Of a stretch of 25,789 bases of DNA, positions 5,206-25,789 are shown one piece after another. The notes under the pieces were generated by a model. That model was not told the DNA's origin, did no database searches, and saw nothing but the letters and a program-made list of their open reading frames with translations. The stretch spans positions 1 to 25,789 of the IMG/VR virus record IMGVR_UViG_3300045117_000253. One strand, given 5' to 3'. The position numbers and the translations under genes are program-made. Numbering within the stretch: the first letter of the stretch is position 1; the number at the start of each line of letters is the position of its first letter. The stretch comes from a virus.

Positions 5206-5271
5206 TCAACCCCTCCCTCCGACGTACTTCGCCCCTTTTGCGAGGGGTATGCTCTTCCTGAATCTTTTCAT
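5206..5271 (-). CDS. Basic micro-ORF, 21 aa
   Basis: Begins MKRFRKSIPLAKGAKYVGGR; its ATG overlaps the HNH gene's TGA (ATGA) and its stop directly precedes the zinc micro-protein start. Highly basic. The last codons coincide with the purine-rich SD of the next gene. It may serve mainly to couple translation from HNH to the zinc micro-protein. Confidence 0.35.
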   Translation of the reverse strand: MKRFRKSIPLAKGAKYVGGRG

Positions 5272-5591
5272 GAAATCGCCCCGATTGCGTATTCCTCCTC
5301 TTTTCCATATGGCACGTCATACAGATTTTTTGTTCTGAGTGCCTCTCTGAATCTCTGCTCTCTGAGAAACATTCTGATTCTACAGAGTTTTGCGTGTTCT
5401 CGCCTGTGGCATGATGGGCATAGAGTTATGAGATTTTGTGGTGTGTTGTTTTTGCGGTTCATGTCTTTGTGGTGGATGTTGAACCTCTTCACCAGTGATT
5501 GCGTGCCGATGAGAATCTTTCCCGATATGCCGCATCGCATACAGCGCCAATCGTCGCGCTCGAGTATTTGTGTACGTAGTTCTGGCTTCAT
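5268..5591 (-). CDS. HNH endonuclease, 107 aa
   Basis: Clear HNH architecture: a zinc knuckle at C17-x2-C20 (WRCMRCG), IHHKD with H40/H41 (the general base and metal site), N53 in NTPQNLITL, then CPSC-H (C58, C61, H62) closing the zinc site. HNH proteins are metal-dependent DNA nickases or nucleases. In tailed viruses they act in packaging (next to terminase) or as free-standing homing endonucleases. Here it sits in the accessory operon, far from any visible terminase, which favours a homing or DNA-processing role (inference). The ATG at 5591 overlaps the upstream stop and is preceded by GGGGCTGATAAA. Confidence 0.88.
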   Translation of the reverse strand: MKPELRTQILERDDWRCMRCGISGKILIGTQSLVKRFNIHHKDMNRKNNTPQNLITLCPSCHRREHAKLCRIRMFLREQRFREALRTKNLYDVPYGKEEEYAIGAIS

Positions 5592-7795: not shown

Positions 7796-8128
7796 TCACC
7801 ACAGCCCGAGGCGTATTTTCGTCACGTCGATGAGCTGTTTGAGTATGAACAGAAACCGCGTGCCTGCGGAGCCTGTCGAGTTCGGGCAGAGGACGCGCCA
7901 GTATTGCGTGCCCTGCCAGTTCTTCAGGTAGTAGGTGGTGGCGTTCGCCTGCTCGCTCCGCCTGCGCACGCACCTGGAAATGTCGTCGCCGTCCGCGCCT
8001 ATTACCTTGAGCATGTCGTCCGCGCTTAAATATTCGGCGTCCTTGTCGCTTCCCGGCACGAACAGCGTCGGCGCCACGAAGTAAAAGCCCCCGGTCACAA
8101 GCGTCATCTCGAACTCGTTCGAATTCAT
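7796..8128 (-). CDS. Hypothetical protein, 110 aa
   Basis: ATG 8128 overlaps the peptidase stop (ATGA). The sequence starts MNSNEFEMTLVTGGFYFVAP and later has DDISRCVRRRSEQANATTYY and QGTQYWRVLCPNSTGSAGTR. It is beta-rich with two Cys and ends IRLGLW. Translational coupling to the transglutaminase-like gene suggests a partner or inhibitor of that enzyme. No family is recognised and the role is inference. Confidence 0.6.
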   Translation of the reverse strand: MNSNEFEMTLVTGGFYFVAPTLFVPGSDKDAEYLSADDMLKVIGADGDDISRCVRRRSEQANATTYYLKNWQGTQYWRVLCPNSTGSAGTRFLFILKQLIDVTKIRLGLW

Positions 8129-9162
8129 GGTCTCCCTCCGTTTATGCGTATGAACTTGAAGAACGGCTGCCTCTGCAGCCTCCTCGCCTTTGTGCGCTGG
8201 GCATCCGTCCCGAACCAGTTGAACGTCTTGGTGTCGGTCGAGGAGAACCAGGGCTGCGCTATGTTGAGACTTTCCGAGCCGTCCCCGGTCAGCGGCAGGC
8301 TCTTGGCGTCCTTCCCGGCGGAGTAGTTCGTCGTGCTGTTCCGGTGGTGCCACTTCAGGTCTGATGCGAGGTAGAACGTGGTCGCGTGCCCCTCGTTGCT
8401 GAACGTCATGCCTGCGGTGACGCGCAGCAGCTCGTAGGGTATGCCAGCAATCCTCGCCCCGACGTGGTTGAGGATGGCTTTGTCCTCGCAGTCGCCCGTC
8501 TTCATGATGCGCGTTTCGGATGCAAATTGCCAAAACTCGTTCTCTCCCCAGCTCCGGTCGTCGAATTGGTACGGGATGGAGTCGCCGAGGGCGTGCGTCA
8601 CCCTCATGAAGGCGATGTCGCATGCCTCGTGGAAGCCGATGTCCGGCTTTTCCGCAAGCACGTCCTGCACCCTTCCCTTGGCGGCCTTCACCATGCTGAC
8701 TATTTCCCAGTCGTTCTGCCCTTCGAGTAGCCACACCTTTGCGTCCAGCCTGTAGCGGTTCCGGTTGGTGCCCCAGTAGCGGCCGCCATAGGTGACGTAT
8801 GCCTCCGGGTACTTGTTCATGTAGGCGGTTGCCAGGGCCTGGGTGCCTGCTGGCAGGTAGCCGAAGGTCAGCGACTGCTTCGGGTCAATCGGCTGCTGTG
8901 AGTTGAGCTGCGCCCTGAGCCGGCTTATTTCAGAGGTCAGGTCGCTGACCTCCTTGCTCAGGGAGGCTATTCTTGCGAGGTTCTCCTGCTTGCTTTGGGC
9001 GGCCCCCGCGACCAGCTCGTTCATCTCGCGCTGCAGGTTCTGCTTGTCTGCCTCGAGAACGGCTATTTGCTGCCCGAGTATGGCGTTGGTCTGCTCGTTC
9101 GCGTCGCGCGTCCTGATGAGCCTTCCGCAGAAGACCCGTTCGAGAAGGGAGTCGGATTGCAT
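8125..9162 (-). CDS. Coiled-coil + transglutaminase-like cysteine peptidase, 345 aa
   Basis: Residues ~20-88 form a long coiled coil (AILGQQIAVLEADKQNLQRE and on to SEISRLRAQLNSQQ). Residues ~160-280 carry the transglutaminase-like core: RIMKTGDCEDKAILNHVGAR with candidate nucleophile C225, GIPYELLRVTAGMTF, then GHATTFYL with H259. The position where the third catalytic Asp usually lies (KWHHRNST) holds N275; D268 is nearby. In archaeal viruses pseudomurein endoisopeptidases belong to this superfamily, so a tail- or lysis-associated envelope-degrading role is likely. Start ATG 9162 follows AAGGTAATACC. It opens a module that also holds two small membrane proteins. Confidence 0.75.
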   Translation of the reverse strand: MQSDSLLERVFCGRLIRTRDANEQTNAILGQQIAVLEADKQNLQREMNELVAGAAQSKQENLARIASLSKEVSDLTSEISRLRAQLNSQQPIDPKQSLTFGYLPAGTQALATAYMNKYPEAYVTYGGRYWGTNRNRYRLDAKVWLLEGQNDWEIVSMVKAAKGRVQDVLAEKPDIGFHEACDIAFMRVTHALGDSIPYQFDDRSWGENEFWQFASETRIMKTGDCEDKAILNHVGARIAGIPYELLRVTAGMTFSNEGHATTFYLASDLKWHHRNSTTNYSAGKDAKSLPLTGDGSESLNIAQPWFSSTDTKTFNWFGTDAQRTKARRLQRQPFFKFIRINGGRP

Positions 9163-9619: not shown

Positions 9620-10129
9620 TCAATATGTTGTCGTCGTCTCAGTGTACGTCGTCACGCGCTGCCCGAGCCCGTTCAGCCCTATGATGTCCCCGCTCCCGAT
9701 TGTGAGGTAGTCCAGCACCATCTGCGCGTCGGCGCGCGTGCTCACGATCTCTATTCTCAGGTAGTCGACCGCCGTCCAGTCGGGTGTGCCGGTTTCCGTG
9801 GCGTTCTTGAGCCTGAAGCACCAGTAGTTCCACCCATCCTGCACGTCGGTTCCGTCGGTGTATGTCTTCACTCCTGCTATTTGGGAGTAGTCTGAGGCCC
9901 CCGAGCCTATGCGCAGAGTGATGCTCGTCAGCTCGTCGTTCGCGCAATAGACCCAGAGCCCGACCGTTCCGCTGGTCGGGCTTCCCGAGTTGACGAGGGT
10001 GTATGCGCTCAGGTTGCCGAAGCTCTGTGTGGTCAGGATTGAGAAGGTGGCTGCGCTGGCGACCACCTTCAGGCTTTTGCTGCCTGTCAGCACAAGGCTG
10101 TCGTTGATGACGTAGCTTCCGGATGGCAT
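9620..10129 (-). CDS. Carbohydrate-binding-like jelly-roll protein, 169 aa
   Basis: Begins MPSGSYVINDSLVLTGSKSL and continues KVVASAATFSILTTQSFG, with SGTVGLWVYCANDELTSITL and GWNYWCFRLKNATETGTPDW further on, ending in a Thr/Tyr tail. The GSKSLKV...W...LR rhythm is that of CBM-like jelly-roll modules in tail fibres and surface proteins. The expected first strand of such a module is missing here but is found at the C-terminus of the hub gene (see findings). The ATG follows the previous stop within 3 bp. Likely receptor glycan binding. Confidence 0.6.
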   Translation of the reverse strand: MPSGSYVINDSLVLTGSKSLKVVASAATFSILTTQSFGNLSAYTLVNSGSPTSGTVGLWVYCANDELTSITLRIGSGASDYSQIAGVKTYTDGTDVQDGWNYWCFRLKNATETGTPDWTAVDYLRIEIVSTRADAQMVLDYLTIGSGDIIGLNGLGQRVTTYTETTTTY

Positions 10130-10946: not shown

Positions 10947-13127
10947 TTAACCGCCTCCAAACGTAATGTTCAGGTTCGCGCTTTTCGTCGCTGGGAAATA
11001 AAAGTCTGCCCAGCACCAGACGCTTGAGTTGTTTGCCGCCGAGAGGTTGAAGAGCACCGGGGCGCTTGCGTTGCATGGCGTCGCGGCGCTTGCGTTGTAG
11101 CTCGTCGCGCACTTCACCGAAAAGCCGGTTATTGCCGGGCTTTGGTTGCAGGTGATGTTGGTTGTTGTGTTGCAGTTCATGGTGCAGTTCACGAAAAACA
11201 GGGCGGTTGCCACGCTTTGGTTTGAAGCGCTCACGTTCTTGCTTATGAATGTTGAGGCGTTGAACAGTATGGAATTTATTCCATTCCCGAGCGTAGTACT
11301 GATGACTGGTATTGTGGTCAAGTTGGCTGCCGTCACCGCCCCAGTTGAGCTTGATTGTAAATATTCTGCCTTGAGCCAGTCGTCTGAGCGCGAAAAGTTG
11401 GTAAGCCTGAACTCATCCAAAGCCGCGCCTGCTCCGTCTGTCGCCCAGTATTGCCCTGCGGCGTCTGCGTGTCCGATATTGAACGCATGCCCAGATGGGG
11501 ATGTCGCAAGAGTTCCAGACGTATTTGTGCTTGCAGTTCCGTTGCTGACTGTGTAATGAGTTCCGTTGTATCTCATGGCATAGAATTTAGGAGTGTTCCT
11601 CGCGGTTGTGTCAGACAGGGTAGCTGATATTGTGCTGCCCCAGTTCTCCACGTTAATTATGGTGCTGTTTGACCAAGCTATCCTTGCGAGATTTATGCCC
11701 CCGCCCCCTATTATGTAGAGTGACCTCATTGTAGCACCGAGATTGGCGTTATATCCCCAAATTGTCGTCGTGGAATTGTTCGCTCTATTTGGAAGCCCAC
11801 CGTAGTTGGTGCTTGTCAGATAAGACGATGTAGTGTCAAAGCTGAAGCATAGCCCGACTTTGCACTTTGATTGGTTGTCGGTTATTGACACTGTTCCAGA
11901 CGCGGAGAAGTTGTTGCGCAGCATCAAATCCGTGAAGGTGTCGCCATGCATGACTGTGGTGTATTCTGACCATACATCAGTGGCGTTCTCGCCGCTTGTG
12001 GCATTGACGTTCCCAAGGTATGCGTATATCGTGGTGCTTACATTTCCAGTGTAGTTGCCCTTCACCCAGAATGTAGCGTTGTTGGTGGCGTTGCCGCAGA
12101 AGGAAGCATTGTTCGTGTCAAGGTTGTAGTTCAATAATGTTGCTCCATCAGCATCAACGAACCTGACGTTTGTGCAGGTAGTGGTATTCCAAAGGGTAGT
12201 GTTGCTCGTGTTCAGGCTCACTCTTGCTGGGAAGTTGGTTAGGTTGCTCTCAACTGTCGTGTTTATGTAAATGGGCATTGTGTAGTTCCAAGTTAAGTTC
12301 CACCAAGGGTCTAGCTTCAGGACAATATTTCCAGTCCCCTCTATCACGTCGCTTGGGCTGCCTGTATGGACTACAACATCAAATTTGCCACTGCTGCCTG
12401 CTGGAATATCATAGACAAACCCGGTCTGGTAATTGGTTGGGTTTTCAAATTCAACGTCGTTTATCGTGTAGAGCTTCTTGCCGTTGTATTCCATTGCGCT
12501 GAACTTGTGCTTTATGCTCACGAATTTCTCAACTGTCACGTTTTGCTCCACATAGACTGTGCCGTTGAGTTGGTAATTGAAGGTGTAGTTGTCGCCGTCT
12601 TTTACCCATTTATTGAAGCATCCAGTAAGGTTCGTGCCGTTGGCGTAATAGAGCCTTCTCCTGTAAAAGTTTTGCAAGTCGCCGAAGTCGCAGGGGGAGC
12701 TTGATGAGCTATTCGCCACAAGACCATAAAGGGTAATCTCATAATCAACCCTGCCCTGTGTTGGCACGCTTTGGAGTTCTGTCACGTTTCTGAGCAGCAA
12801 GACATCTCTACCTTCTGATTGCAGGTCAAATACAAAGGTGAGGTTGAACGTTCTTGGGGTTTCATTTGTGTAGGTGAAATTGCAGAATGTATGCTGGGTT
12901 ATGAGTTCGGTTGCGACAACGGGTGTGCATGTAATCCTTGCTCCTTTTCCGTTGTCCCAGTAGACGTGGTCGCCTCCGAGCACCCACCCGCTTTCGGGCT
13001 GGGACATTGTGGTCTGGAAGGGCTGCTGCTGGACGCAGCCGGTCAGAATAAAGATTGCGAGGCTTATGGCCGCCAATGCGAGGAACGCAAGCATCCCCAT
13101 AAGCCATTCCTTTGTTTCCTTTTCCAT
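10947..13127 (-). CDS. Lipobox adhesin with DUF2341 and LamG domains, 726 aa
   Basis: A hydrophobic N-terminus (residues 10-30) ends in LTGC with Cys31, a lipoprotein-type lipobox. An N-terminal beta region with Cys pairs follows. From about residue 274 (DPWWNLTWNYTMPIYIN) comes a DUF2341 module, then a LamG/ConA-like lectin domain (~400-615) with LDEFRLTNFSRSDDWLKAEY, and a Cys-rich C-terminal domain. N-x-S/T sequons are very dense. DUF2341+LamG is characteristic of archaeal surface proteins, especially in DPANN-like genomes. ATG 13127 was chosen over 13175, which lies inside the hub gene. A signal-bearing adhesin inside a tail operon suggests host-surface display, host-gene capture, or an unusual membrane-routed virion protein. 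Confidence 0.8.
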   Translation of the reverse strand: MEKETKEWLMGMLAFLALAAISLAIFILTGCVQQQPFQTTMSQPESGWVLGGDHVYWDNGKGARITCTPVVATELITQHTFCNFTYTNETPRTFNLTFVFDLQSEGRDVLLLRNVTELQSVPTQGRVDYEITLYGLVANSSSSSPCDFGDLQNFYRRRLYYANGTNLTGCFNKWVKDGDNYTFNYQLNGTVYVEQNVTVEKFVSIKHKFSAMEYNGKKLYTINDVEFENPTNYQTGFVYDIPAGSSGKFDVVVHTGSPSDVIEGTGNIVLKLDPWWNLTWNYTMPIYINTTVESNLTNFPARVSLNTSNTTLWNTTTCTNVRFVDADGATLLNYNLDTNNASFCGNATNNATFWVKGNYTGNVSTTIYAYLGNVNATSGENATDVWSEYTTVMHGDTFTDLMLRNNFSASGTVSITDNQSKCKVGLCFSFDTTSSYLTSTNYGGLPNRANNSTTTIWGYNANLGATMRSLYIIGGGGINLARIAWSNSTIINVENWGSTISATLSDTTARNTPKFYAMRYNGTHYTVSNGTASTNTSGTLATSPSGHAFNIGHADAAGQYWATDGAGAALDEFRLTNFSRSDDWLKAEYLQSSSTGAVTAANLTTIPVISTTLGNGINSILFNASTFISKNVSASNQSVATALFFVNCTMNCNTTTNITCNQSPAITGFSVKCATSYNASAATPCNASAPVLFNLSAANNSSVWCWADFYFPATKSANLNITFGGG

Positions 13128-13129
13128 AG

Positions 13130-14617
13130 CTACACATCCGTCTGCTCGGATAGGGTGCAGTTTGTGCCCGCCCACCCAGTCGTCCCGTCCTCCCAGTCCT
13201 CAAGAACCTGCCCGCGCCCGAGCACCCCGTTGAGCTCGTGCCCGAGGATGAAACTGTCGTTTATGCGCTCTATTGTCCTCTTCAGGCTGTAGCGCGCGAG
13301 CTCCGGCGAATGCTTGAACTGCTTCAGGATGTTTGCGAATGCCGCATCCTTGTAGCTTTCCTCCTCCAGCTTTTTAATGCGGTATTCCATGTCGAATGCC
13401 ATCCACGCCTCGAACCTAAATTCCTTGTCCCCAAGCTCGAGCCGGTCGCTGTATGTGCGGAAGTTGCGGATTATGGAGCGTATGGTGTAGTTCCCGGTCT
13501 GCGATGTCCACGGGTCGGTTATTGTCACCTGCTGCCCGACCTCGTAGCCGTAGTTTGTCGCGTTTTTCACTTCGACGTTTTTGACTATTTGGAATGGGTA
13601 TGAGTAGAGCGAGAGGGCGTTGGTGAGCCTGGTCTGCAGGTCGTCCACGGTCGCCGTCTCGAGCAGTGTGATCACTTTCTCGTATGTGCCGTATGTGGTT
13701 ATGCTTGCGTCGTCCGTGGCTGTGAGTGGGAGTGGGGAGCTGAAGACGTAGTCCACGACTATGGTGCTGCTCGATACCGTGAAATATACCTTTTTCGTCT
13801 CCTTGTCGTAGTAGTAGTCTGTGCCGCTGTCGCCCTGCTGCCCTCCGAGCTTCAGAACCCCCCCGACCGTCACCTTCATGCTCTCCGGCTTGTATGCGAG
13901 CGTCACGGACGTCGCCGGTCCTGCGAAGCTCTCGCTTGTCTGGGTTTGGATGCGCGCTCCCTTGATGGTGATGCTGTTCGCCAGCTCGCTCTTGTCCTCT
14001 TCCCAGTTTGGGGTGCTCACTATGTTCACCGAGTCGAGGGCGTTGGTGTTCGTAGAGTAGCGTATGGGCTCGAAGTTGACCTTTCCAGTTGGGGCGTCGT
14101 AGTAGAAGCGCCAGTTGAGCGCCTGGGCGAGCTTCTTGCAGCGCTCGTAGATGTAGGCGTCGAGGCAGCGGAATTGCGAAATGGTGCGCGTGGTGCCGCT
14201 GTCCTGCACGCTTGTCGCGTCTGCCGAGAGGTCGGTGTAATCCGTGATGAGGCTAATGAATATTTCCGACAGCTTCCCTGCCTCGGCGTCCGTGTCCAGG
14301 TAGACGTGGCTGACGGTGCTCGCCTTAGCCTTGGAGAGCTGGTCGAGGCAGGTGATTTTGTATTGGTAATTCATGAGCTCGATGGTCTCTATGAGCCCGT
14401 CGAATATCAGGTCTGAGTCGGTGAACGAGCCGTCGTAGTCGCGCCATACCTTGACCCGCTGCCCGCTGGTGAGGGTGACGACGTCGTCCAGTCCGGCGTT
14501 CGCCATGAATTCCGCCTTGCCTATCTCGTAGGATAGGCTGTCCGTCGAGTAGCCCTCGGTCACGTATTCGGTCACGTCAATCGACGCCACCGTCACCTTG
14601 AGCGTGAATCCGGTCAT
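13130..14617 (-). CDS. Baseplate hub / tail protein (gp27/GpD-like), 495 aa
   Basis: Begins MTGFTLKVTVASIDVTEYVT and has DSLSYEIGKAEFMANAGLDD, SGQRVKVWRDYDGSFTDSDL and FDGLIETIELMNYQYKITCL. This is the hub-domain pattern of gp27/late-control-D-like tail proteins. EVGQQVTITDPWTSQTGNYT and a GDKEFRFE strand follow, then a helical region (MEYRIKKLEEESYKDAAFA). The C-terminus ends GRGQVLEDWEDGTTGWAGTN plus CTLSEQTDV, which looks like the opening of a carbohydrate-binding domain cut short by the stop. ATG 14617 overlaps the preceding stop as ATGA. By position it anchors fibres at the tail tip. Confidence 0.75.
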   Translation of the reverse strand: MTGFTLKVTVASIDVTEYVTEGYSTDSLSYEIGKAEFMANAGLDDVVTLTSGQRVKVWRDYDGSFTDSDLIFDGLIETIELMNYQYKITCLDQLSKAKASTVSHVYLDTDAEAGKLSEIFISLITDYTDLSADATSVQDSGTTRTISQFRCLDAYIYERCKKLAQALNWRFYYDAPTGKVNFEPIRYSTNTNALDSVNIVSTPNWEEDKSELANSITIKGARIQTQTSESFAGPATSVTLAYKPESMKVTVGGVLKLGGQQGDSGTDYYYDKETKKVYFTVSSSTIVVDYVFSSPLPLTATDDASITTYGTYEKVITLLETATVDDLQTRLTNALSLYSYPFQIVKNVEVKNATNYGYEVGQQVTITDPWTSQTGNYTIRSIIRNFRTYSDRLELGDKEFRFEAWMAFDMEYRIKKLEEESYKDAAFANILKQFKHSPELARYSLKRTIERINDSFILGHELNGVLGRGQVLEDWEDGTTGWAGTNCTLSEQTDV

Positions 14618-15238: not shown

Positions 15239-16844
15239 AGTTCCCCCCTCTCTTGAGCTCGCTTGCCATCTCGCGCTTGAGCAGCTCCAGCATGCGGCGC
15301 ATGTCGGAGTCGCTCTCGAAGCGCGGGTTGTTTATGGTGACGTTGACGGTTCCCCCGCCGAGGCTTCCCGGGTTTTTCGTGGCGAATATGTAGTCCGCTG
15401 GGTCGGTTTTGATGATTTGCCCGCTCGGAGTGATGATGGCATCTTGGATGGGAATCAGTCGGTCGCGCAATTCCTTGGGAAGGGAATTAAAAATCGCCAC
15501 TATGCCGGATGTGGCTTTTCTCAGCATTTCGAAAAGGTTGGAGAGAGACGAGCCGATGCTCTCCCAACCAGAAACGAGCTTGCTTTTGAAGCTGTCTGGG
15601 TCGTCGCTAAAAAGAATGTTGTATGCATCGCCTGCAAAAAGTTTAAAGCCGGTTTCGAGCATTCCACCTTTGGCAAAAAAGCCTATTCCGGTTCCAAACA
15701 AGGCAACATCCACAAGGTCACTGGCTTTTTTAAAATTCGTTTCAAACTCGCCTCCTTTTCCAAAAACAGCGCCATCCCCAAAGAGAAAATCAAGCATCCC
15801 TGGTTTTGAGGTGAGTGTTGTGTTAAACCCAAACGCTTCTCCTTCCCCCCAAGCGTTTGCTTGTGTCGTTCTGAATCCAAGCGCTTCTCCCTGTCCGGGC
15901 CATTTTTCCCCTTCTTTTGGTGACTCCGACTCCCATGGCCATCTAAACGTTGTGCCTTCCCATGGCCATTTAAAGCCTTTGTCCCATGGCCACTTGAAGC
16001 CTTTGTCCCATGGCCAAGTGATTGTAAGCCCATCCCAGGGCCACTTGAAGCCACCTCCCTCTTCCCAGGGCCACTTGAAGCCACCTCCCTCTTCTGTGCT
16101 TTCCCAGGGCCACTTGAAGCCTTCGAGCAGCTTGCCGCCGAGATAGCCAATCACGCCTCCTTTGGAAAGGTCGAACATTCCATAGCCCAATCCGCCAGCG
16201 GGCTCTTCTTCGGATGGAGCCGCAGCCCATTTGTCGATTTCTTTCACGAAGGTGTCCGTGAAGTTATCCATAATGGCATTAAAGTTGTCAAGTCCCTCGA
16301 ACATCACTTTCATGAAGTCGGTTGAGAGGTCGCTGATGTCCATCTTCGAGGTGTCCACCCCGAACAGGCGCATGAGGAAAAGCACGAAGCTCGTCAGGAT
16401 TTTGAAAATTGAGCCGAGCAGCTTCGTCCAGAATTTGATGGCTATTATGACGAGCACGAGGACTGGCTTCAGGAGCGTCTGCAGCACCATCGCCAGGGGA
16501 AGCACGAGCAGTTGTATGATTAGGCTTATTTGCCCGAGTATGGGCTCGAGGATGTCCTTGACCGCGCCGATTACGACGCTTACGACGGCGAGCGTGGCAA
16601 CCGCCTTGGTGACGAGCCCTGCGATAGCATCCATGGCTCCGCCGCCTGTCTCTGTTTTTATGTTGAATTTCACGTCTTCTATGCCTTCGAAGGCGTCCTC
16701 GAACTTGTCGGCTATCTTGTCGAGCCGGTCAAGCCCGGCAAGCGCGGTTTCCAGGGTGTCTGCTGACCTTTGGAATGACTTCTCGAGCTTCTTGCCTGCT
16801 TCCTCGAGTCCTGTGAGTTTCACGAGTACGTCCATGCCTGCCAT
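15222..16844 (-). CDS. Tail tape measure protein with WPW repeats, 540 aa
   Basis: The N-terminus is helical with heptad character (residues 1-60). A long hydrophobic block (about 76-162) follows, as in phage tape measures. Seven WPW motifs occur between residues 245 and 304 (245, 258, 268, 277, 285, 293, 302), mostly as GFKWPW(E/D), with a degenerate KWPG at 314. The C-terminus has a phage tape-measure ending (IITPSGQIIKTDPADYIFAT, then TVNVTINNPRFESDSDMRRM). It follows the tail assembly chaperone pair directly. Length would fit a tail of very roughly 80 nm using the usual ~1.5 angstrom per residue. It acts inside the tail tube and may insert in the host membrane. Confidence 0.9.
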   Translation of the reverse strand: MAGMDVLVKLTGLEEAGKKLEKSFQRSADTLETALAGLDRLDKIADKFEDAFEGIEDVKFNIKTETGGGAMDAIAGLVTKAVATLAVVSVVIGAVKDILEPILGQISLIIQLLVLPLAMVLQTLLKPVLVLVIIAIKFWTKLLGSIFKILTSFVLFLMRLFGVDTSKMDISDLSTDFMKVMFEGLDNFNAIMDNFTDTFVKEIDKWAAAPSEEEPAGGLGYGMFDLSKGGVIGYLGGKLLEGFKWPWESTEEGGGFKWPWEEGGGFKWPWDGLTITWPWDKGFKWPWDKGFKWPWEGTTFRWPWESESPKEGEKWPGQGEALGFRTTQANAWGEGEAFGFNTTLTSKPGMLDFLFGDGAVFGKGGEFETNFKKASDLVDVALFGTGIGFFAKGGMLETGFKLFAGDAYNILFSDDPDSFKSKLVSGWESIGSSLSNLFEMLRKATSGIVAIFNSLPKELRDRLIPIQDAIITPSGQIIKTDPADYIFATKNPGSLGGGTVNVTINNPRFESDSDMRRMLELLKREMASELKRGGNYATGY

Positions 16845-21368: not shown

Positions 21369-22505
21369 TCAGTATATGTTCCCAATGCGCACCGTCACAA
21401 TCTTGATGAGGATGTTGGTCGGCTTCGACATGTTGTAGACGTATGCTACCTTCGCTGGCGTCAGGCTTTCGTTGAAGTACATGATGCTGTCGTAGCCGAC
21501 TGGGGCGTATTTGTTCGTTGCGGTGGAATAGCTGTAGTTGTAGCCGTCGCCGAAGTAGTTCGCCGCCCCGCTTGTCCAGTTGGCGAACTCCTGGTTCGTG
21601 TGGGCTCGGGTGTAGTTCAAGACCAGGGAGCCATTGACGAATATGCTCAGGTTCGTGGTGTTCCAAGCGACCGCGTAGTGCGTCCAGCCGGTCGTGTTGA
21701 ACAGCCCGGCTGCGTTGGTGTATGTCTGGTTCCAGCTCGAGTTGTTCGTGGCGAGAACTACCATGAGCGTCGTGTTGTTGTATGCGATTATGGAGGTGTT
21801 GTTGACGTGGCTTGTGGGCGTGCCTCCGAGTGCCGCGCCCTTGTGCCACAGGTACCACGAAACGTTGGTCGGGATTGACGAGTTCGTGTAGAGCCAGAAG
21901 GCGATGGTGAAGTTCTTGTTGCTCGTGATGTTCATGGTTGAGCTGTCGTTCACGCGCATGAAGCTCGTGTTCGAGCCGTTGAGGAACGTGGCGTTGTAGA
22001 TTTTCCCAGTCATCCAATTGGTGACGTAGGTGTTGTTGATGACAGCTGGCAGTTCGAGGGTGTCGGCCCCTATGGAGTTGGTGGTGCTGTTCCCGGTGCC
22101 TGCGTCAAGCTTCCACCAGTGCAGGACGTTCGCTGGCGTGAGGGAATAGCCTCCGGTCGAGTTATCGTTGCAGGTGATGTTCAGGTTGCCGTAGTTCGTG
22201 TAGTTTGCGGTGCTCCGGTTGAGGAACGTCACTCCTGCCGCCGTGGTATTGTGCGTCCATAGCGTGTTGTTTTCATTGTAGATTGAGCAGGTGAAGTCAG
22301 CCCCGGCTCGGTTCTCTATGCGCAGGTATTTGATTACCCCGTAGACGTTCGAGAACACGACCGTGGTGTTGTTGTATTGCCCGGTGAATATGTTCGCCTG
22401 GCGCATGTCGTAGCCTGCCCCGAAAAAGTCGGCGTTTGTGGTGACGTCGGCGCAGGCAATTGCGCCAAGCATTATGAGCGCGAAAAGCGCCGAGTTCCAC
22501 TTCAT
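21369..22505 (-). CDS. Secreted LamG-like lectin, sequon-rich, 378 aa
   Basis: Signal peptide MKWNSALFALIMLGAIACAD, with a Cys near the cleavage region (a possible but imperfect lipobox). Domain 1 (~20-125) is beta-rich. From about residue 127 (NVLHWWKLDAGTGNSTTNSI) runs a LamG/ConA-like fold with NFTIAFWLYTNSSIPTNVSW, GWTHYAVAWNTTNLSIFVNG and ESLTPAKVAYVYNM, the usual LamG core. I count 34 N-x-S/T sequons in 378 residues. In archaea these would be AglB-type glycosylation sites if secreted. It lies between the small capsid decoration-like genes and the anchored protein gene. Likely glycan or host-surface binding. Confidence 0.8.
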   Translation of the reverse strand: MKWNSALFALIMLGAIACADVTTNADFFGAGYDMRQANIFTGQYNNTTVVFSNVYGVIKYLRIENRAGADFTCSIYNENNTLWTHNTTAAGVTFLNRSTANYTNYGNLNITCNDNSTGGYSLTPANVLHWWKLDAGTGNSTTNSIGADTLELPAVINNTYVTNWMTGKIYNATFLNGSNTSFMRVNDSSTMNITSNKNFTIAFWLYTNSSIPTNVSWYLWHKGAALGGTPTSHVNNTSIIAYNNTTLMVVLATNNSSWNQTYTNAAGLFNTTGWTHYAVAWNTTNLSIFVNGSLVLNYTRAHTNQEFANWTSGAANYFGDGYNYSYSTATNKYAPVGYDSIMYFNESLTPAKVAYVYNMSKPTNILIKIVTVRIGNIY

Positions 22506-22518
22506 TTTAATCCCCCCT

Positions 22519-22779
22519 TCAGTTGCTTCCCTCGAAATAAACGGTTATGTAGCCCGTGTCGGTCGTGGTGAGCGCAGCGAGCGTGCATGTCCCTGGCGTC
22601 GTCGTCCAGTTTATGGTGGCGCTTGCCCTGACCGTGGATGGCGTCCATGCCACAAACACCGTGCTCTTCGGGATTGTGATGTTCCCTCCGGTCGTCGGGT
22701 TGGTTGTCGCATACGAGTATACTTTGTAGGAGAGGCTGCCCAATACCCCGCGCGCCACGAGTGTGCTTGAGAATGCCAT
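22519..22779 (-). CDS. Small decoration-like protein B, 86 aa
   Basis: MAFSSTLVARGVLGSLSYKV then NITIPKSTVFVAWTPSTVRA and SATINWTTTPGTCTLAALTT, ending GYITVYFEGSN. It is a paralogue of the preceding gene: both share an xVxWTPxTxRASATIN core and DxGYxxV near the end. Start ATG 22779 aligns with the paralogue's MAF start and has GAGGCGATAACA upstream. An upstream in-frame ATG at 22800 overlaps the paralogue and lacks an SD. Probably a capsid surface or minor tail component. Confidence 0.7.
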   Translation of the reverse strand: MAFSSTLVARGVLGSLSYKVYSYATTNPTTGGNITIPKSTVFVAWTPSTVRASATINWTTTPGTCTLAALTTTDTGYITVYFEGSN

Positions 22780-22789
22780 TGTTATCGCC

Positions 22790-23047
22790 TCAGAAGCCAC
22801 CCTTGGCTATCACCATCACATACCCTGCATCGGATGCGGTCAGGCCGTTTAGGACGATGTCGCCTGCGGTCGACGTGAAGTTTATGGTCGCGCTCGCGCG
22901 GATCGTCGCAGGCGTCCACAGCACGTCGATTATTCCCTTGACGGTCGTGATGGTGTCGTTCGTGCCAGTCGCGCCGGTGTAGTTTATAACGGCGTAGCTC
23001 AGGTCGCCCATTACCCCAGTCTTCCTGACGGTGTATGCAAATGCCAT
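22790..23047 (-). CDS. Small decoration-like protein A, 85 aa
   Basis: MAFAYTVRKTGVMGDLSYAV, DTITTVKGIIDVLWTPATIR, then ASATINFTSTAGDIVLNGLT and ASDAGYVMVIAKGGF. A small beta-rich protein close to the major capsid gene, a type frequent in tailed viruses of this size and usually interpreted as capsid decoration. SD GGAGGGATAG lies directly before the ATG. A tandem duplicate follows. Confidence 0.7.
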   Translation of the reverse strand: MAFAYTVRKTGVMGDLSYAVINYTGATGTNDTITTVKGIIDVLWTPATIRASATINFTSTAGDIVLNGLTASDAGYVMVIAKGGF

Positions 23048-24610: not shown

Positions 24611-25789
24611 TTAGCTCCGCAACGCGCCGGGTTTCGTGAAGTATTCCTTCACAAAGTCCAACGTGTCGAGCTTTGCTCCCTTCATTATTTCTGCCGGGGT
24701 CGGCAGTTTCGTGTTCTTCCCCGCATGCTTTTCGGGGTTGAATGGCATCTCGTTGACCGGAGGGCGGGGCGTTGAAGCGGGTTCGGCGGACTTCTGCATG
24801 TCCGCGACGGCCGCCTTGCCCATGTCCTCCTTCTTTTCCTCCTCCGTCTTTTCCTTTGGCTTTTCCTCTGCTTTTGCCGATTCGGGCGTCTTTGGCTCCT
24901 CTGGTTTGGCAGGAGCTTCGGGCTTCACCGCCTCGGCTGGCTTTTCCTCCTTGACGGGCGCGGTTTCCTTCACAGGGGCTGCCGCCGCGCTTGCCTCGGT
25001 CGCCTTCTGCATGAACTCGAGCACCTTCTGCATGTTGCTCTCTATTGACGCAAGCCTCGATTCGAAGTCTGGGGCATCCGGCTTTGGTGCCTCGCGCGCC
25101 TCCGGCGCCTTCTCGCGCGGGACTTCCGCTGGGGGCGTGTCCGACTTCTGCTCGGGCGCATGTTCCTCCTTCCCTTCCTTGGCTTCCTGGGCCTGCGCCG
25201 CCGGGGGCTCCTTCTTTTCGTCTGTGACCGTGACGGTTGCCTTTTCCATTTCGCTCTTGCCCATTTTCTCCCCCTCCACTGAGCGCATGATTGTGGCGCA
25301 ATATGCCTTCGGGTCTTCCTTGTCCTTGTTTGCCGCGACGCACCCGGCAAAGTCTTTGTAGCCTGCAAACGGCTTTTCCATATCCGCCTTCCCCAGCTTC
25401 CCACGGTCTTCCACTATTTTGTCGATTGTTTCCTTGGGGAGTTCAGGGTGTTCCTTGGATTCTTTTTCCTTTTCTCCTCTTGGCGTGAGGTCGCTTTTGT
25501 TAAGATTGGCATCAATCCATTTCTTTGCGCCTTCGATGCCATTGGAATCTTCCCAAATAGCCATATTGGGATTCTTTGCACTATAAATTACATATTGAAA
25601 CCTTGTTCTGAGCCATATCTCATGTCCCTTGTAATTGTGATACTCTTCAGACTTGTTCATCTTTTCCTTGGGGAGTTCAGGGTGTTCCTTGGATTCTTTT
25701 TCCTTTTCTCCTCTTGGCGTGAGGTCGCTTTTGTTAAGATTGGCATCAATCCATTTCTTTGCGCCTTCGATGCCATTGGAATCTTCCCA
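24611..25789 (-). CDS. Scaffold-like E/K/P/A-rich protein, partial, with duplicated N-terminal domain
   Basis: The frame is open to the window edge; an ATG at 25660 is internal to a longer frame. A ~78-residue unit (EYHNYKGHEIWLRTRFQYVI through WEDSNGIEGAKKWIDANLNK to HPELPKE) is present once fully and again partially upstream, in frame. Next is PFAGYKDFAGCVAANKDKED/AYCATIMRSVEG, a short motif common in phage head-module proteins. A long low-complexity E/K/P/A region follows, with a coiled-coil segment (ESRLASIESNMQKVLEFMQK) and a C-terminal helix (LDTLDFVKEYFTKPGALRS). Its location before the capsid gene suggests a scaffold or delta domain. The missing N-terminus may hold a protease or portal part. 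Confidence 0.65.
   Translation of the reverse strand, partial: WEDSNGIEGAKKWIDANLNKSDLTPRGEKEKESKEHPELPKEKMNKSEEYHNYKGHEIWLRTRFQYVIYSAKNPNMAIWEDSNGIEGAKKWIDANLNKSDLTPRGEKEKESKEHPELPKETIDKIVEDRGKLGKADMEKPFAGYKDFAGCVAANKDKEDPKAYCATIMRSVEGEKMGKSEMEKATVTVTDEKKEPPAAQAQEAKEGKEEHAPEQKSDTPPAEVPREKAPEAREAPKPDAPDFESRLASIESNMQKVLEFMQKATEASAAAAPVKETAPVKEEKPAEAVKPEAPAKPEEPKTPESAKAEEKPKEKTEEEKKEDMGKAAVADMQKSAEPASTPRPPVNEMPFNPEKHAGKNTKLPTPAEIMKGAKLDTLDFVKEYFTKPGALRS
25429..25555. repeat. 127-bp direct repeat, copy 1
   Basis: Identical to 25663-25789, with a period of 234 bp (78 codons, in frame in the scaffold-like gene). The left edge is defined by a mismatch (25428 G, 25662 T). The right edge of copy 2 is the window end. 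Confidence 0.95.
25663..25789. repeat. 127-bp direct repeat, copy 2 (window end)
   Basis: Exact copy of 25429-25555, ending with the window. The length equals a k-mer size often used by assemblers, so an assembly-graph end is possible. A real tandem domain array of unknown copy number is the alternative. Confidence 0.95.

Follow-up and report, generated by a model that had tools for sequence, protein, structure and literature searches.

Little is known about how tailed viruses of archaea recognize their hosts and keep competitors out. A closely comparable arrangement is that of T5 and BF23: next to the receptor-binding gene lies llp, which encodes a receptor-blocking lipoprotein, and the two form an exchangeable module (PMC9586334, PMC4728585). 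Archaeal tailed viruses are reported to produce exported proteins that mimic those of the host surface, the sheath-like (SH) proteins, for which a role in egress has been proposed (PMC11576556). Proteins containing a DUF2341 domain are listed among the genes that hot-spring viruses acquired from cells (PMC11003980), and a DUF2341 gene located near archaeal pilin genes in M. maripaludis was found in a transformation-defect screen (PMC10133366). In a Methanofastidiosa virus, two DUF2341 proteins, vir519_00031 and vir519_00032, are encoded in the tail gene region and are likely real virion parts. Here, we analyze a 25,789-nt stretch of viral DNA (IMGVR_UViG_3300045117_000253, positions 1 to 25,789; henceforth termed the window), an incomplete genome in which the gene for an apparently exported DUF2341/LamG-like surface protein, P0001, interrupts the C-terminal domain of a tail hub (Table 1). 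Distant relatives of the capsid protein occur in archaeal viruses alone (haloarchaeal and Methanofastidiosa), on which basis the virus probably infects archaea.

Several features set this locus apart from the described systems. Like the pb5/Llp pair of T5, it links the gene for a predicted lipoprotein to a gene for receptor recognition, a role that the hub domain would presumably fill here. The P0001 module is, however, unrelated to that pair by sequence. Llp is small and acts on an outer-membrane transporter from the periplasmic side; llp adjoins the recognition gene of T5, whereas the P0001 gene lies inside the presumptive one. At 726 aa (161 aa in the version of a distant relative, L028), P0001 is about 10 times larger than excluders of the Llp/Cor type, is rich in N-glycosylation sequons and belongs to a probable archaeal virus; searches of Pfam, PHROGs, NCBIfam and PADLOC gave no match to known Llp/Cor-type excluder families. 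With viral SH proteins it shares the status of an exported host-type surface protein in an archaeal tailed-virus genome (PMC11576556), but these have 159-288 aa, a range that includes the L028 version and excludes P0001, and an amyloid-like fold instead of a DUF2341/LamG-like architecture embedded in a hub domain. Archaeal DUF2341-LamG surface proteins (PF10102) resemble P0001 in its apparent domain content and export signal; P0001 differs in being encoded in the tail operon of a tailed virus and in carrying a C-terminal domain of narrow occurrence. The two vir519 proteins also contain DUF2341 and are encoded among the tail genes of a tailed virus of archaea, yet lack a signal sequence and sequon excess.

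Table 1. Coordinates in the window of the split hub gene, the genes inside the split and a second exported protein.
Feature	Coordinates	Strand	Details and basis
P0001, exported DUF2341/LamG-like surface protein (predicted)	10947..13127	-	726 aa; start ATG 13127, TAA 10947
P0001 residues 1-31: signal sequence plus lipobox (LTGC with Cys31)	13035..13127	-	sequence and hydropathy
P0001 DUF2341 domain, residues 318-392	11952..12176	-	Pfam PF10102, 29.3 bits vs cut-off 23.4
P0001 C-terminal domain, ~residues 600-726, common to the L028 161-aa protein	10950..11330	-	46-48% identity; tblastn 1e-23
Tail hub gene, upstream part, ends mid-domain at ...WAGTNCTLSEQTDV (stop)	13130..14617	-	ATG 14617; PHROG tail protein 1.1e-5
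Putative fibre protein inside the split beside P0001, 270 aa	10132..10944	-	ORF reading; no family match
Detached remainder of the hub C-terminal carbohydrate-binding-like domain, 169 aa	9620..10129	-	profile positions 41-191, 171 bits
Second exported sequon-rich LamG protein (predicted), 378 aa, not part of the split	21369..22505	-	Pfam Laminin_G_3 2.3e-9

The original prediction had described the reading frame at 10947-13127 as a 726-aa host-type surface protein with a signal sequence, a lipobox, DUF2341, LamG and dense sequons. The coordinates are correct, the strand being minus. The N-terminus (MEKETKEWLMGMLAFLALAAISLAIFILTG/C31) peaks at a hydropathy of 2.66 across 18 residues and continues into a canonical LTGC lipobox, identified by eye. 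P0001 thus has the sequence attributes of a lipoprotein, a hydrophobic signal followed by a lipobox cysteine, and would presumably be lipid-anchored at Cys31. DUF2341 is likewise confirmed, as the only family that Pfam assigns. LamG received indirect support: no LamG family in Pfam matched P0001, but residues 186-613 align (27%, E 3e-20) with the DUF2341 and LamG-like stretch of a 2085-aa membrane-anchored protein encoded on the tailed-virus contig 3300032516_000202 (L035). The gene for this protein, whose sequon profile has a peak at +2, follows shortly after a distal tail gene, in a slot that resembles that of P0001 in general; the contig ends there, so that the hub falls outside it. The C-terminal domain of P0001 gives a weak, colinear alignment with the L035 protein that is not significant. 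PHROGs, NCBIfam and PADLOC contained no family for P0001, and a sequence search matched no solved structure. A structure model of the 726-aa protein was discarded at a pLDDT of 35.6, and no fold, LamG or amyloid-like, can be read from it.

The sequon density was borne out and proved the most informative property of P0001. It contains 45 sequons, against 15.9 +/- 3.3 (z 8.7) in shuffles that preserve the composition of each protein. As a control for mere richness in Asn, Ser and Thr, we profiled Ser/Thr at offsets of -5 to +5 around Asn and counted 48 at +2, compared with 11-19 at each other offset. Hub, fibre, domain gene, tape measure, tube and capsid proteins have sequons at expectation, and the offset profile of virion proteins is flat. 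The +2 enrichment is confined to proteins whose N-terminus is hydrophobic: besides P0001, it occurs in the 21369-22505 and 20318-21280 proteins and in such proteins of related viruses. The first of these (34 sequons vs 11.0 expected), similar in kind to P0001, is encoded in the structural region after the head genes, and L006 (35%) and L019/L020 (41%) have relatives of it in the corresponding position; the second (minus strand, 320 aa) has an N-terminal membrane segment, 11 sequons vs 3.1 and no family match. Huge exported sequon-rich proteins also occur in the structural regions of relatives (L006:5228-8974, 1249 aa, with beta-helix matches; L019:13502-16693, 1064 aa). The vir519 DUF2341 tail-region proteins, which have no signal sequence, show neither sequon excess nor a +2 spike. 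Assembly of tailed virions takes place in the cytoplasm, a compartment without N-glycosylation. Among the available sequence evidence, the +2 pattern is the strongest that P0001 is routed outside the cell and N-glycosylated there and is not a tail part. Together with the hydrophobic N-terminus and LTGC, DUF2341 and the sequon excess, this pattern, absent from virion proteins, makes it almost certain that P0001 is a surface protein, exported and anchored in the membrane. The prediction of a host-type surface protein is upheld in this sense, with a sequon signature that points to selection for glycosylation. More generally, testing for Ser/Thr at +2 from Asn offers a simple means to tell which proteins of uncultured archaeal viruses are exported to the surface and which belong to the virion.

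The original prediction had also placed the gene between hub and fibre genes, which is true but incomplete, as it missed that the P0001 gene splits the C-terminal domain of the hub. The hub ORF terminates at ...LEDWEDGTTGWAGTNCTLSEQTDV, and the gene that starts at 10129 opens with MPSGSYVINDSLVLTGSKSLKV. In a domain profile built from three intact domains (L008, L009 and L029), the last 41 aa of the hub cover positions 1-37 and the downstream gene covers positions 41-191, with no overlap. Hub and domain are contiguous in L008/L030, L009 and L029, three relatives with an uninterrupted ORF; in L008 (contig 3300045738_000288) they form a single ORF of 679 aa, and the L029 hub body is 51% identical to that of the window. 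The intact fusions and the complementary profile coverage place ca. 3.0 kb, comprising P0001 and the fibre gene, within a hub-plus-domain gene. Stop and start codons are spaced by 2 nt throughout, which suggests that P0001 is co-produced with hub and fibres. No transposition-type direct repeats flank the insert. We considered and set aside an intein, a self-splicing intron and translational bypass: ORFs with 2-nt spacings fill the 3-kb gap and leave no space for a ribozyme. The near-identical contig IMGVR_UViG_3300045116_000401 from another metagenome (99.5% identity over 18 kb) carries the same gene in the same order, so the layout is not an artefact of a single assembly.

A related gene occupies the same break in a distant virus, L028 (contig 3300045117_000212), another finding that the original prediction did not contain. 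The L028 hub body is 30% identical to that of the window, and its hub stops at ...TGTSCTLSEQTA, the same alignment position at which the window's hub domain is broken. This stop overlaps the ATG of a gene for a 161-aa protein, and the gene for the domain remainder starts 1 nt further on. The 161-aa protein, predicted to be exported and membrane-anchored, has a hydrophobic N-terminus, a cysteine in the context TFGC, a non-canonical lipobox, and 16 sequons vs 4 expected. It matches the last ~120 residues of P0001 and lacks DUF2341 and LamG; only the C-terminal domain is kept. This domain is so far known only from the virus of the window, its near-identical strain and L028. The fibre gene, which lies inside the split in the window, follows the domain gene in L028. 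An N-terminal extension, INDSLVL, is common to both split domain genes and absent from the intact versions. The recurrence of a P0001-related gene at this break in a distant relative suggests that surface protein and hub domain work together.

Sequence identities between the window and L028 are unevenly distributed, with 63% for the hub end, 48% for the C-terminal domain and 66% for the domain gene, compared with 27-36% for hub body, fibre, gp9217 and protease gene. The last of these (8125-9162, minus strand) encodes a transglutaminase-like cysteine protease (C93-like, just below the Pfam cut-off) with a coiled coil; its L028 relative at the same place is 36% identical, and the protein could be a cell-wall enzyme. 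In a tree of hub bodies, the window groups with the unsplit L029, and a pairing of window and L028 is rejected (p-AU 0.0002). Window and L028 lie 0.57 apart in the domain and 2.95 apart in the hub body. A quartet tree limited to the domain leaves the sister pairing unsettled (p-AU 0.13-0.18). The distances and the hub-body tree indicate that hub end, surface protein and domain have been exchanged as a module between lineages, in one or more events. The split is known from two viruses only, both assembled from metagenomes, as are all contigs of this virus and of every split relative.

The detached domain gene is under purifying selection as judged from codon comparison of window and L028 (dN 0.34, dS ~2.5). 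In the 99.5% identical contig, the gene differs by a 43-bp patch (9665-9707), in which 13 of 20 changes fall at third positions and, of the 13 codons affected, 9 are synonymous; the flanking contig is almost identical. With changes that are mostly synonymous and at third positions, the patch resembles a conversion tract from a donor under purifying selection, and diversity-generating hypervariation was rejected in favor of gene conversion. Between the same two contigs, the tape-measure gene also varies by indels and substitutions in WPWE-type repeats (15922-16061). AlphaFold predicts a beta-sandwich for the domain gene from about residue 18 (mean pLDDT 73), preceded by 17 residues below 50; the core of the domain thus seems able to fold even though one strand stays behind on the hub. 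Structural matches are marginal, the best being the HFTV1 turret (1e-3); a xyloglucan-binding protein ranks next, together with several carbohydrate-binding modules. On these matches, the domain may bind sugar; it is also the presumptive receptor-binding part of the hub.

For the function of P0001, receptor masking, i.e., the superinfection exclusion that had been among the predicted roles, is our best guess. We tentatively propose, as a possibility that falls somewhat short of probable, that a receptor-recognition module is paired with a receptor-masking surface protein in a tailed virus probably of archaea, in a manner akin to pb5/Llp of T5. The hub would end in a carbohydrate-binding-like domain, into which the gene for an exported, N-glycosylated surface protein has been inserted; what was detached of this domain is retained as a separate gene under purifying selection. 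P0001, presumably co-produced with hub and fibres, would be held by its anchor on the outer side of the membrane of the infected cell. Its lectin-like domains may there cover or occupy the very surface ligand recognized by the domain of the hub. Progeny and competitors would then fail to adsorb to infected cells or debris. Classical excluders act early. The place of P0001 in the structural operon suggests late expression, which speaks against masking of the classical kind; P0001 may instead shield progeny from infected cells or debris more than it excludes early competitors. The size of P0001 relative to excluders of the Llp/Cor type, the non-canonical TFGC of L028, the marginal structural matches behind sugar binding and the occurrence of the split in just two viruses also weigh against masking. 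We regard as doubtful a wider version of the proposal, according to which the recognition domain of archaeal tailed-virus hubs is a landing and exchange site: the hub would be made as two polypeptides, with the first domain strand on the hub and the rest separate, the gene in the gap would encode an exported glycoprotein masking that domain's ligand, and the whole would move between viruses as one self-contained cassette. If masking holds, a surface-protein gene nested in the recognition domain and inherited with it would allow receptor-masking proteins to be found by a rule of sequence, and the paired hub domain would lead to their ligands.

Among the alternatives, P0001 could remodel or weaken the cell envelope late in infection and thereby aid virion exit, as proposed for the exported surface-protein mimics of archaeal tailed viruses (PMC11576556). 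Late co-expression with virion genes, as its operon position suggests, would suit such a role, and relatives hold further exported sequon-rich proteins in their structural regions. We nevertheless rate it as unlikely, since it accounts neither for the placement of the gene in the recognition domain nor for its inheritance along with that domain, and since viral sheath-like proteins, at 159-288 aa, are unlike P0001.

It is similarly unlikely, in our estimate, that P0001 is a captured host adhesin that changes the adhesion of infected cells, for example by clumping with neighbours or a partner organism, and leaves adsorption unblocked. Control searches found DUF2341 proteins in cellular archaea, the M. 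maripaludis gene near pilin genes (PMC10133366) being one example; together with the listing of DUF2341 among cell-derived genes of hot-spring viruses (PMC11003980), this makes capture of the gene from a host plausible, and the domain order is common to the anchored L035 protein. The claim of capture nevertheless gained no support from host genomes: two narrow scans, one with a capsid alignment and one with the P0001 C-terminal domain, found no relatives, and annotated phages contained none of the hub or P0001. Moreover, a role in adhesion alone does not predict the linkage with the hub domain, and the L028 version consists of the C-terminal domain without DUF2341 and LamG.

A passenger gene without particular function that landed in the hub by chance would account for a split seen in two known viruses, with inserts as different as a 726-aa protein plus fibre and a 161-aa protein alone. 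This we consider improbable, given the same break and a related C-terminal domain despite 30% hub-body identity, the tight stop/start spacing in both split viruses, and a domain gene that carries its own N-terminal extension in both split versions and is under purifying selection. Least probable by our assessment is that P0001 is itself a virion component of the tail tip or fibre, with a hydrophobic N-terminus for assembly or membrane penetration, as its location among hub and fibre genes and the DUF2341 of the two vir519 tail-region proteins might suggest: the vir519 proteins lack the signal and the strong sequon excess that P0001 shares with other proteins with hydrophobic N-termini, and virions assembled in the cytoplasm would miss N-glycosylation. 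The predicted membrane-routed receptor-binding protein is likewise disfavoured.

Further observations concern the remainder of the window. A small ORF outside the tail operon (5268-5591, minus strand) is HNH-endonuclease-like by eye. After the capsid gene, two adjacent, related small genes on the minus strand (22519-22800 and 22790-23047) possibly encode head decoration proteins. The end of the window contains an exact 127-bp direct repeat (25429-25555 and 25663-25789), which gives rise to a repeated stretch in the encoded protein.
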